Below, one piece after another: positions 6,886 through 53,699 of a DNA stretch of 64,000 bases. The DNA is from an uncultured Lachnospiraceae bacterium (GTDB taxonomy: Bacteria; Bacillota; Clostridia; Lachnospirales; Lachnospiraceae). The stretch is from positions 62,001-126,000 of the forward strand of contig CANQYY010000003.1 in assembly GCA_947628225.1 (NCBI GenBank), written 5' to 3'. The notes below the pieces were generated by a model. It made no database searches, was not told the origin of the DNA, and was given only the letters and a program-made list of their open reading frames with translations. The position numbers and the translations under genes are program-made. The first letter of the stretch is position 1. Every line of letters begins with the position of its first letter.

Positions 6886-6917
6886 TTGCCATATCTGTCC
6901 ATTTATGATATTATACT
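6886..6917 (+). promoter_or_regulatory. Probable promoter of the TM1266-hydG leader
   Basis: TTGCCA at 6886-6891 is followed by two overlapping -10 candidates, TATTAT (6909-6914, 17-base spacer) and TATACT (6912-6917, 20-base spacer). Either puts the transcript start near 6920, about 160 bases before the first gene. Confidence 0.45.
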
Positions 6918-7045
6918 AATAAGTGGTCGTACTGACGTGCAAAGGTTTGTCCTGAGCAAAAAGGCGATAAATAGTGAAACCTCCTCGGTTTTGGGAGGAA
7001 GGTTTTCGTTACCGTTGCGCCGGGATGTATGTCCGGGCGTTTTTT
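6918..7045 (+). promoter_or_regulatory. Structured leader with intrinsic terminator before TM1266-hydG; candidate attenuator or riboswitch
   Basis: This is most of the 333-base gap between genes. A CCTCC/GGAGG hairpin (6981-6998) can be extended outward by GAAA/TTTTC. Bases 6942-6948 (AAGGTTT) can instead pair with AAACCT at 6977-6982, which would break that hairpin. A GC-rich stem at 7018-7039 with six U residues (7040-7045) is a good intrinsic terminator placed 35 bases before the start codon. Mutually exclusive pairings ahead of a terminator are what an attenuator needs. I compared it by eye with the FMN, TPP, cobalamin, c-di-GMP, THF, ZTP and SAM consensus features and could not match it. 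No long plausible leader peptide is evident. Confidence 0.5.
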
Positions 7046-7079
7046 ATTATTTACAAAAAGGAAAAGGAGATACCGTGTT

Positions 7080-7325
7080 ATGGAAAAACGTATTGCATTA
7101 ATTGGAATTATCGTAGAAAACAGGGAAGCGTCGGAGCAGATAAATGAAATCCTGCACCAGTACCGGTCCTATATGGTAGGACGGATGGGAGTGCCTTACC
7201 GGGAAAGAAACTTATCTGTCATTAGTGTAATAGTGGATGCGGAGAGTGATATTATCAGCGCCATATCCGGCAAACTGGGAATGGTAGAAGGTGTCAGTAC
7301 GAAAACGATTTACGCAACCAAATAA
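7080..7325 (+). CDS. TM1266 family iron-only hydrogenase system regulator (putative), 81 aa
   Basis: A small alpha/beta protein (MEKRIALIGIIVENREASEQ at the start; LSVISVIVDAESDIISAISGKLG later) that matches the TM1266-type family, which resembles the NikR C-terminal/ACT fold and is found beside [FeFe]-hydrogenase maturation genes. In Thermotoga maritima TM1266 also neighbours hydG, as here. Its proposed role as a regulator is from gene neighbourhood in the literature and not proven by sequence; it has no DNA-binding domain. The frame extends upstream, but the ATG at 7080 has AAGGAG at a good distance and upstream sequence is the leader terminator. The stop is 30 bases before hydG. Confidence 0.8.
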   Translation: MEKRIALIGIIVENREASEQINEILHQYRSYMVGRMGVPYRERNLSVISVIVDAESDIISAISGKLGMVEGVSTKTIYATK

Positions 7326-7355: not shown

Positions 7356-8780
7356 ATGTATAAATACGACCCGAAATCAAGCGTGGCAGATGAATTTATC
7401 CATGACGGAGAGATTCAGGAATCATTAGCCTATGCACAGGAGAATAAGAACAATAAAGAGGTTATTGATGCCATACTGGAAAAAGCAAGGAAAATGAAAG
7501 GAATTTCCCACCGGGAAGCGGCGGTGCTCCTGGAATGCGGACTTGAGGAAGAAAATAGGGAAATTGAAAAGCTTGCCAAAGAAATCAAAGAGCGTTTCTA
7601 TGGAAAGCGGATTGTTATGTTTGCCCCGCTCTATCTGTCAAATTATTGCGTCAACGGCTGTCTTTATTGTCCGTATCATATGAAAAATAAACATATTGCC
7701 AGAAAGAAGCTGACGCAGGAGGAAATCCGCAAGGAGGTAATTGCCCTGCAGGATATGGGGCACAAGCGTCTTGCTATTGAGGCAGGGGAAGACCCGGTCA
7801 ATAATCCTCTGGAATATATACTGGAAAGTATTAAAACCATTTACAGTATTAAACATAAAAACGGCGCCATACGCCGTGTCAATGTCAATATTGCTGCTAC
7901 AACTGTAGAAAACTACAAAAAGCTCAAAGACGCCGGAATTGGCACCTATATCTTATTCCAGGAAACCTATAATCGCAAGGCATATGAGAAGCTTCATCCC
8001 ACCGGTCCGAAAAAAGATTACGCCTATCACACCGAGGCAATGGACCGCGCCATGGAGGCAGGCATTGATGATGTGGGCTGCGGCGTTTTGTTTGGACTGG
8101 ATATGTACCGGTATGAGCTGGTGGGCATTATCATGCACGCCGAGCATCTGGAGGCAAAATTCGGCGTCGGCCCTCACACCATCAGCGTGCCGAGAGTCTG
8201 CCCCGCCGACGACATTGACCCGGGTGAGTTTGACAACAGCCTGTCCGATGAAATTTTCCAGAAAATCGTGGCTGTCCTGCGTATTGCAGTGCCCTATACC
8301 GGCATGATCGTATCGACCAGAGAGTCCCAGAAGAGCCGGGAGAAGGTGTTAGACCTCGGTATCAGCCAGATTAGCGGCGGTTCCCGCACCAGCGTGGGCG
8401 GCTATGTAGAGGAAGAGCCGGAGGAGGAAAACTCTGCTCAGTTTGATGTAAGCGATAGACGTACTCTGGATCAGGTTGTGAGCTGGCTGTTTGATCTTGG
8501 CTATATTCCGAGCTTCTGCACCGCCTGTTACCGTGAGGGACGTACCGGCGACCGCTTTATGAAGCTGTTAAAATCCGGCCAGATTGTCAACTGCTGCCAG
8601 CCGAACGCGCTGATGACCCTGAAGGAATATCTGGAGGACTACGCTTCGCCGGAAACAAAAGCCAAGGGAGAGAAAATCATCCGGGAACAGTTAGAGATAA
8701 TTACCAATCCGGTAGTTAAAGAAAAGGCACGGGAATACATCGAAAATATCCACAACGGGCAGAGGGATTTCCGGTTTTGA
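7356..8780 (+). CDS. hydG: [FeFe]-hydrogenase maturase HydG, radical SAM tyrosine lyase, 474 aa
   Basis: HydG cleaves tyrosine to p-cresol and dehydroglycine and builds the Fe(CO)2CN synthon of the hydrogenase H-cluster. The radical-SAM cluster motif is CVNGCLYC (Cys98, Cys102, Cys105), placed as in the family. The C-terminal cysteines for the auxiliary cluster are in SFCTACYREGRTG and VNCCQPNALMT. The length is normal and the start (ATG with GGAGGAAAG) is clear. HydE, HydF and the hydrogenase are not in this window, so they must lie elsewhere. The second half of the gene (about 8150-8470) uses more C-ending codons than its neighbours. Expression is probably set by the leader at 6918-7045, shared with the regulator gene. 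Confidence 0.96.
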   Translation: MYKYDPKSSVADEFIHDGEIQESLAYAQENKNNKEVIDAILEKARKMKGISHREAAVLLECGLEEENREIEKLAKEIKERFYGKRIVMFAPLYLSNYCVNGCLYCPYHMKNKHIARKKLTQEEIRKEVIALQDMGHKRLAIEAGEDPVNNPLEYILESIKTIYSIKHKNGAIRRVNVNIAATTVENYKKLKDAGIGTYILFQETYNRKAYEKLHPTGPKKDYAYHTEAMDRAMEAGIDDVGCGVLFGLDMYRYELVGIIMHAEHLEAKFGVGPHTISVPRVCPADDIDPGEFDNSLSDEIFQKIVAVLRIAVPYTGMIVSTRESQKSREKVLDLGISQISGGSRTSVGGYVEEEPEEENSAQFDVSDRRTLDQVVSWLFDLGYIPSFCTACYREGRTGDRFMKLLKSGQIVNCCQPNALMTLKEYLEDYASPETKAKGEKIIREQLEIITNPVVKEKAREYIENIHNGQRDFRF

Positions 8781-8835: not shown

Positions 8836-8902
8836 CGCCCGAATCGGCGAGAACCCTTATCCGCGGAAAGGATACCGGGTTCGGCCGATTCGGGCGTTTT
8901 TT
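8836..8902 (+). terminator. Long intrinsic terminator after hydG
   Basis: The 13-base arms CGCCCGAATCGGC and GCCGATTCGGGCG (8836-8848 and 8884-8896) pair perfectly, inner bases GAACCC/GGGTTC extend the stem, and TTTTTT follows. The left flank lacks an A-run, so it ends hydG transcripts rather than those of the minus-strand gene that converges here. Confidence 0.9.
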
Positions 8903-10209
8903 CAATTCTGATACAGATTTCTCTTATCAATTACCCGTACTGCCTTACCTTCGCTTCTGGTAATGCTTTTCGGATCCACAAGAGTAACCTCTGCCAGAAT
9001 GCCCAGCATAGATTTCAGACCGGCGATCAGTTTCCTTTTTGCCAGATCCCGGTCAAAAGTACTGTCTGCTGCCATGGCGGGAGTAAGCTCCACCTGAACT
9101 TCAATATTATCGTTGTTTTTCTGCCGGGATACAATTATCTGATAATTAGCGGCAAAGCCCTGATTGATCAGTACCGTTTCAATCTGGGATGGGAATACAT
9201 TGACGCCCTTGACGATCAGCATGTCGTCGCTCCGGCCCATCGGTTTTGACATTTTCACATGAGTGCGTCCGCAGGAACACTTTTTGCGGCTCAGCACACA
9301 GATATCTCTGGTGCGGTATCGGAGCAGGGGGAAGGCTTCCTTGGTAATACAGGTGAAGACCAGCTCGCCTTTTTCTCCGTCCGGCAGGACTTCTCCTGTG
9401 GCAGGGTCAATAATTTCCGCAATAAAGTGGTCTTCATTGATGTGCATGCCGGTCTGTTCGCTGCACTCAAAGGAAACCCCGGGGCCGGAAATTTCCGTCA
9501 GGCCGTATATGTCGTATGCTTTGATCCCCAGCGCTTTTTCAATATCGCGGCGCATTTCCTCCGTCCATGCCTCAGCGCCAAAAATGCCGGCTTTCAATTT
9601 GATTTTATCTTTTACTCCCCGCTCATGGATGGTTTCTGCGAGGTAGGCGGCATAGGAAGGCGTACAGCATAGAATAGTGGAGCCCAAATCCGTCATAAAC
9701 TGAATCTGCCGATCCGTATTTCCCGAGGACATCGGCAGGGTCAGAGAACCTACCTTGTGGGAACCGCCGTTCAGTCCCGGCCCTCCGGTAAAGAGCCCAT
9801 ACCCGTAGCAGACATGAACGACGTCCTCCTTTGAGCCGCCGGCGGCTATGATAGCGCGGGCGCAGCATTCATCCCATAAATCAATGTCGTGCTGGGTGTA
9901 AAATGCCACTACCCGCCGTCCAGTCGTTCCGCTGGTAGACTGTATGCGGACACAGTCGCTCAGAGGGCGCGCCAGAAGCCCATACGGATAAGCATCCCGC
10001 AGATCATCCTTTGTCAGGAAAGGAAGCTTATGTAAATCCTCGAGAGATTGAATATCTCCCGGCTCTAATCCCTTATTCTGCATTCTTGTCCGGTAATAGG
10101 GGACATTGTCATATACATATTTAACCTGTTTTACCAGACGCTCGTTTTGCCAGGCGCGAATCTGCTCCCGCGAGGCGCATTCAATTTCCTTCTGAAAATA
10201 ATTACCCAT
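8902..10209 (-). CDS. paaK: Phenylacetate-CoA ligase family (PaaK-like), 435 aa
   Basis: ATP-dependent acyl-adenylate ligase that makes aryl-acetyl-CoA from arylacetic acids. The AMP-binding core shows QSTSGTTGRRVVAFYTQHD, the acid-binding loop DIYGLTEISGPGVSFEC and the hinge YRTRDIC, with the C-terminal ACT-like segment typical of the PaaK clade (RSDDMLIVKGVNVFPSQIE). Length matches the family (about 430). In anaerobic Clostridia this enzyme often goes with indolepyruvate oxidoreductase for aromatic amino acid fermentation, but that partner is not adjacent here, so the substrate is inferred. The ATG at 10209 is preceded by GGAGGAAT and a good minus-strand promoter. Confidence 0.92.
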   Translation of the reverse strand: MGNYFQKEIECASREQIRAWQNERLVKQVKYVYDNVPYYRTRMQNKGLEPGDIQSLEDLHKLPFLTKDDLRDAYPYGLLARPLSDCVRIQSTSGTTGRRVVAFYTQHDIDLWDECCARAIIAAGGSKEDVVHVCYGYGLFTGGPGLNGGSHKVGSLTLPMSSGNTDRQIQFMTDLGSTILCCTPSYAAYLAETIHERGVKDKIKLKAGIFGAEAWTEEMRRDIEKALGIKAYDIYGLTEISGPGVSFECSEQTGMHINEDHFIAEIIDPATGEVLPDGEKGELVFTCITKEAFPLLRYRTRDICVLSRKKCSCGRTHVKMSKPMGRSDDMLIVKGVNVFPSQIETVLINQGFAANYQIIVSRQKNNDNIEVQVELTPAMAADSTFDRDLAKRKLIAGLKSMLGILAEVTLVDPKSITRSEGKAVRVIDKRNLYQN

Positions 10210-53556: not shown

Positions 53557-53567
53557 GGTGGCAAATA

Positions 53568-53683
53568 GAGGTCTTCAGGGCGGGGTGCAAGTCCCCACCG
53601 GCGGTAAAGCCCGCGAGCAGGTAAACCTGCTGATTCGGTGAGATTCCGAAGCCGACAGTATAGTCTGGATGAAAGAAGATTTA
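53568..53683 (+). promoter_or_regulatory. FMN riboswitch (RFN element)
   Basis: Conserved pieces are all here in order: AGGGCGGGGTGCAAGTCCCC, ACCGGCGGTAAAGCCCGCGA, GATTCGGTGAGATTCCGAA, GCCGACAGTATAGTCTGGAT and GAAAGAAGAT. The outer helix pairs GGTCTTC (53570-53576) with GAAGA (53674-53679). FMN binding should favour the terminator at 53700-53731 and shut off ribDEBAH. Confidence 0.98.
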
Positions 53684-53699
53684 GGATGATGATTATATG

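Follow-up and report, generated by a model that had tools for sequence, protein, structure and literature searches.

The attenuator of the pyr operons that answers to PyrR is a short leader hairpin with conserved internal-loop nucleotides, and this hairpin forms at the expense of an antiterminator. Its binding protein is the product of the first gene of the operon, and the bound, folded state leads to termination. The terminating (OFF) riboswitches of Firmicutes, such as the FMN riboswitch, have a structured 5′ domain whose 3′ strand is common with the antiterminator, and they are placed ahead of biosynthesis and uptake genes.

The leader of the TM1266-hydG operon in the window (the whole stretch of 64,000 nucleotides analysed here) resembles both systems. 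Like the PyrR attenuators (RF00515), it sets a hairpin with conserved internal loops against an antiterminator, its candidate effector (TM1266) is encoded by the first gene, and its folded state is predicted to terminate transcription. Unlike RF00515, it gives no covariance match to that family, its regulon is H-cluster supply, and TM1266 is unrelated to PyrR and a candidate RNA binder only. With the OFF riboswitches it shares the structured 5′ domain, the common 3′ strand and the place ahead of biosynthesis and uptake genes, but its sequence and fold differ from those of riboswitches such as FMN, and no Rfam family fits. To our knowledge, TM1266 has so far been described only as a "putative regulator".

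Leader Layout and Gene Neighborhood

The features of the leader are listed in Table 1. Curated profiles confirmed the two genes that the earlier note had placed downstream, TM1266 (TIGR03959, 117 bits) and hydG (TIGR03955, 926 bits). The intrinsic terminator of that note, put at about 35 bases before the start codon, was also seen and ends about 34 nt before the ATG of TM1266. Only 9 nt separate the predicted −10 from the element. The leader, described before as structured, folded at −41.5 kcal/mol, modestly below its shuffles (z −2.1). Since z is only −2.1, the single sequence proves little, and related sequences have to decide.

Table 1. Features of the TM1266-hydG leader and operon (window coordinates).
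Feature	Position	Strand	Basis
Promoter, sigma-70 type, TTGCCA-17-TATTAT, extended −10 (TG)	6886..6914	+	Predicted
Conserved RNA element, 46-nt hairpin	6924..6969	+	Model match 60-66 bits, covariation, RNAalifold on unguided alignment
P1, A6931 bulged	6926-6930/6964-6968		
Pairs C6932-T6933/A6962-G6963	6932-6933/6962-6963		
Purine mismatches G6934-A6935/A6960-A6961	6934-6935/6960-6961		
P2	6938-6940/6956-6958		
Purine mismatches	6941-6942/6954-6955		
P3, loop 6946-6950	6943-6945/6951-6953		
GGCG on the element 3′ side, element-paired when folded, putative antiterminator 5′ strand when not	6963..6966	+	Own-versus-swapped complementarity, fold energies
Variable spacer hairpin (CCTCC/GGAGG), brings both antiterminator strands together	6976..7007	+	Sequence varies in relatives
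Intrinsic terminator, GCGCCGGGAT-GTAT-GTCCGGGCGT + T tract	7017..7046	+	Predicted, plus complementarity analysis
CGCC in terminator arm, putative antiterminator 3′ strand	7018..7021	+	Complementarity analysis
Shine-Dalgarno AAGGAG of TM1266	7064..7069	+	Sequence
TM1266 family protein, 81 aa, NikR C-terminal-domain-like fold, candidate effector (ATG at 7080)	7080..7325	+	Profile, structure model
hydG, H-cluster radical SAM maturase, 474 aa, operon gene 2	7356..8780	+	Profile

A terminator-like stem (GCCGATTCGGGCG + T6) lies downstream of hydG at 8875-8901. Beyond it, a convergent gene at 8902-10209 (−), which we take by eye from its sequence to be phenylacetate-CoA-ligase-like, occupies the same place in the relative L042.

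Structure and Conservation of the 46-nt Element

The element is one irregular hairpin that carries two copies of a single internal-loop module, CYRA/RARG. Its consensus consists of P1 (CG(U)N-CU/AG-GCG), tandem purine mismatches, a 3-bp P2, tandem purine mismatches again, and an apical part in which P3 (RGG/CCY) is capped by a short loop. The two internal loops stand in two-fold pseudo-symmetry, and both are exactly CUGA/AAAG in 19 of 80 copies. Invariant nucleotides were also found outside the base pairs of the element. A kink-turn was considered and rejected, the internal-loop modules having no 3-nt bulge.

In a comparison of 39 genomes of the genus, positions 6923-6969 were about 90% identical (90-92%) ahead of TM1266 in the closest relatives, and the 75 nt on the 3′ side were unalignable. 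Of the structured leader of about 125 bases described in the earlier note, the structure stands, and the conserved unit is limited to the 46 nt of the element. The CCTCC/GGAGG hairpin of that note is present in the window, yet it is not conserved in the relatives. The pairing of 6942-6948 with 6977-6982, which had been proposed to exclude it, can be drawn here, but its AAACCT partner is missing in the genus relatives.

Alignments A4, A5 and A8 were fitted to the covariance model, and the calibration of the models was short. There were 141 double-change cells in alignment A5 (79 distinct sequences); shuffling left 46.4 ± 5.2, and slid controls never exceeded 35. Because A5 was fitted to the model, alignment A6 was built without it, by MAFFT alone, from 32 diverse copies. 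The count of double-change cells in A6 was 51, with 18.2 ± 3.1 after shuffling and a maximum of 21 among the slid controls. Covariation, which the earlier note had proposed looking for in related leaders, was thus present in an unguided alignment, and RNAalifold, given A6 with no structure supplied, returned the same 12 pairs. The element is therefore a conserved structured RNA class with pairs that covary across diverse members. Structure arising by chance in a spacer, which would agree with the only modestly unusual fold of the single sequence, is refuted by these data, the element being conserved over at least 17 families with covariation; we give it practically no weight.

In several other families, a segment of about 50 nt lies between promoter and element (L099, L101, L105, L107, L109, L110, L112, L115, and L116). 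It has a possible hairpin of its own, e.g., CUGCGAGG-U-CCUUUCAG, and is possibly a second domain.

Comparison with Known RNA Families

No Rfam 15 family was found on the element at the gathering cut-off in the window and 14 related loci, and on the window leader all matches stayed below every gathering threshold. At E ≤ 10 for the window leader and E ≤ 0.5 for 20 further loci, nothing on the element rose above chance. The earlier impression that no known riboswitch is present, gained by eye, is borne out by this absence of an Rfam 15 match on the element in the window and 34 related loci. The best sub-threshold match was the rteR sRNA (RF04181), which like the leader has two stem-loops with a terminator. 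It scored 19.5 bits where the cut-off is 72 (E 1.9), which is chance level, and it was rejected. The sole Rfam match of the window is an FMN riboswitch at 53567-53684 (+) (RF00050, 122 bits).

HydG uses tyrosine, and this substrate, together with the terminator/antiterminator layout, would suit attenuation by a leader peptide or a T-box that senses tyrosine or another amino acid. Neither a T-box motif nor a plausible reading frame occurs in 6918-7045. No T-box was detected in the window leader at the Rfam gathering cut-off or at E ≤ 10, no ATG precedes the distal arm of the terminator in 6918-7045, and a short GTG frame has neither a tyrosine codon nor a ribosome site. The conservation is that of an RNA structure and not of a reading frame, and we consider amino-acid attenuation of this kind very unlikely.

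A search of the open-access literature returned no relevant paper on HydG or HydE riboswitches, on TM1266 or on RNA motifs of hydrogenase maturases. The main text of two genome-wide motif-discovery papers does not mention hydrogenases. No RNA regulator of [FeFe]-hydrogenase maturation was found in Rfam 15 or among the open-access papers searched, and the element is apparently a previously undescribed cis-regulatory RNA.

Distribution and Genes Preceded

Two covariance models, R1 (14 leaders) and R2 (35 copies), were searched against genomes that were not selected by gene context. R1 found 27 positive among 397 genomes of the family, and R2 found 24 among 245 genomes of the class. Within the class Clostridia, the element is spread over at least 17 families, one false match in coding sequence having been set aside. 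When 85,000 species genomes were scanned for an exact pattern, 24 named contigs carried it; Hespellia stercorisuis, Faecalicatena contorta, and [Ruminococcus] torques ATCC 27756 are among the carriers. A search of plasmid DNA gave no match.

The first gene on the 3′ side of 80 copies, 14 of which had been gathered via TM1266 loci, was TM1266 (65 copies), hydE (12), a substrate-binding protein (2), or a permease (1). Nearly all context-free matches also lie ahead of TM1266, hydE, or a TM1266-linked ABC transporter, and the linkage of the hairpin to these genes is established by computation. R3 matches among 100 TM1266 loci of the family concentrate 100-250 nt on the 5′ side of TM1266. An element that R3 recognises stands directly 5′ of about 24 of the 100 genes, and most are without one. 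Weak model matches in or beside unrelated genes (L091, L095, L119, L186, and L187) were discarded; L091, L095, and L119 are the context-free matches that fall outside this regulon.

Genome G135 has three copies of the element, at C4:43087 and C4:44518 (L174) and at C33:533 (L094). Two of them are in tandem, and the upstream copy of this pair has no intact gene directly behind it.

Probable Attenuation Mechanism

A terminator follows within 260 nt in 67 of the 80 copies. Between the 3′ strand of the element and the 5′ terminator arm of the same leader, the mean complementarity score was 13.75, compared with 12.68 ± 0.23 when arms were swapped, and none of 2000 permutations was as good. Strand and arm co-vary in L166 (AAGGCGCA/TGCGCCTT), L260 (AGGCACAAA/TTTGTGCCT), and L209 (AAGGCATGG/CCATGTCTT). 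In L078 the pair is GGCATGA/TCGTGCC, and P1 is changed there as well (UCAUG/CAUGA). Since strand and arm change together, one strand serves either the element or the antiterminator. The mutually exclusive pairings proposed earlier thus survive as a conserved competition between other partners, GGCG on the element side and CGCC in the terminator arm. As in an intrinsic-terminator attenuator, a terminator and an exclusive upstream structure are conserved among relatives.

The predicted antiterminator of the window is short, made up of GGCG/CGCC and a weak extension. As the terminator arm emerges, the element (−27.0) and the antiterminator (−28.9) are near-isoenergetic, and in the full-length leader the element with the terminator (−41.5) is favored over the alternative (−33.8). 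Minimum-energy folds at growing length pass from the element, through a near tie, to the element with the terminator.

We conclude that the leader is probably an attenuator of TM1266-hydG, with a predicted transcription start. The element, with P1 and two purine-mismatch modules, would fold soon after the start site. If it stays folded, the downstream terminator would form and TM1266-hydG would not be transcribed. If it opens, its 3′ strand (AAGGCG) would be free to pair with the terminator's 5′ arm, and transcription would read through. We infer that folded means OFF and that the leader regulates in the cell. Stabilisation of the element by an effector would then amount to feedback repression. 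Attenuation of the hydrogenase-maturation genes, as suggested in the earlier note, is well supported, and the regulon reaches beyond hydG: it takes in TM1266, hydE, hydF, the ABC transporter, and nitrogenase-like genes. For L069, L074, and L076, no terminator separates the element from the TM1266 start codon that it adjoins, so control may act on translation instead.

An alternative that we regard as improbable is an effector-free role in processing, pausing, or stability, in which the conserved hairpin would be followed by a constitutive terminator. Hairpins at the 5′ end stabilise mRNA, and in about half of the relatives the transcript would begin at or close to the element (about 30 of 66, with a distance of 1-10 nt between the end of the −10 and the element). 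Such a hairpin would not explain why the 3′ strand fits its own terminator arm in particular, why conservation exceeds the pairing, or why the element is restricted to one regulon.

Candidate Effector

The leading candidate for the effector is TM1266, which may well be it and might carry a metal or an H-cluster intermediate. The gene was present in all 26 element genomes tested and in 109 of 200 genomes of the family overall; R1 found the element in 14 of the 109 genomes with TM1266 and in none of the 91 without it (Fisher p = 1.4 × 10⁻⁴), a co-occurrence with some circularity in it, given that the element mostly stands ahead of TM1266. TM1266 was also present in about 12 genomes in which the element precedes another gene, and some of these elements lie ahead of hydE or the transporter, far from TM1266. 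As in PyrR-type systems, the candidate protein thus co-occurs with the element also away from its own gene. A sensitive search of all 35 genomes with HydG and without TM1266 found no element, and its two weak matches read as coding sequence.

The structure model of TM1266 (mean pLDDT 95) shows a domain with the order beta-alpha-beta-beta-alpha-beta and has a TM-score of 0.94 to TM1266 of T. maritima (PDB 2nzc). The next solved relatives are the regulatory domains of NikR (TM-score about 0.8-0.88), in which this fold is oligomeric. TM1266 is therefore like the C-terminal regulatory domain of NikR by fold, and unlike NikR it is modeled with no ribbon-helix-helix or other DNA-binding domain. The NikR-C-like fold of the model neither proves nor excludes RNA binding. 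We prefer protein-responsive attenuation because a symmetric RNA site adjoins a regulator gene whose product has a fold that is oligomeric in NikR. A protein effector is at least as likely as the ligands named in the earlier note (tyrosine, iron-sulfur state, or a hydrogenase-related metabolite).

It is nevertheless quite possible that the element is a true riboswitch, which binds a small molecule or ion directly without TM1266. Possible ligands are iron, an H-cluster precursor, SAM or a tyrosine-derived product, and a cyanide or CO complex. Invariant nucleotides beyond the base pairs, one element with two outputs (termination or start-codon overlap), and joint control of synthesis genes with an uptake system, the usual regulon of riboswitches, all speak for direct binding. 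The hairpin, on the other hand, is small and pseudo-symmetric, TM1266 was always present where tested, and the genomes with HydG and without TM1266 lack the element, a dependence that a metabolite sensor would not need. For TM1266, a leader RNA common to the maturation genes of much of the class Clostridia means a function that can be tested. It also suggests that H2 production in the gut is regulated through the supply of the H-cluster.

Modules in HydG-Less Genomes

The absence of HydG is a recognised puzzle in acetogenic Clostridium (PMC9431212). The neighborhoods of TM1266 in the family fall into three modules, and their gene calls were supported by profile checks. Genomes with HydG have TM1266-HydE-HydG-HydF, and in these loci neither nitrogenase-like genes nor a substrate-binding protein was found adjoining TM1266. 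In about half of the genomes with HydE and without HydG, TM1266 stands with NifH-, NifD-, and NifK-like genes, often with HydF. In many genomes with neither, it stands with an SsuA-like ABC transporter. Among 43 genomes with TM1266 and without HydG, 41 have the catalytic domain of [FeFe] hydrogenase and 17 have HydE over the cut-off.

Nitrogenase-like loci were seen at L177 (G117 C1:88000-101500) and at the TM1266 loci of G025, G083, G124, G134, G159, G175, G183, and G191. The element-led operon of G117 holds hydE, NifH-, NifD-, and NifK-like genes, a siderophore-type Fe ABC transporter, hydF, and TM1266.

We infer that the nitrogenase-like and transporter modules may substitute for HydG, and the ABC transporter is a candidate importer of an H-cluster precursor. 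The element is a genomic marker for these HydG-less operons. Operons tagged in this way may explain active hydrogenase in organisms without HydG, a gap noted in the literature (PMC9431212). A more far-reaching reading, which we regard as unlikely, is that the element, alone or via TM1266, responds to an organometallic H-cluster intermediate, for instance the diiron subcluster or the Fe(CO)2(CN) synthon, or to a shortage of it, and coordinates three interchangeable supply routes. These routes would be HydEFG, HydEF with nitrogenase-like proteins replacing HydG, and import by the ABC transporter.

The transporter that follows TM1266 or the element is of the SsuA/NMT1/phosphonate type, carries the motif VGSLKGPTSMG, and occurs in genomes with [FeFe] hydrogenase (L174, L175, L178, L180-L182, L184, L188, L197, L221, L239, L251, L267, and L280). 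Where tested, these genomes are mostly without HydG and HydE. In G135, the transporter operon runs on into a group A6 [FeFe] hydrogenase.
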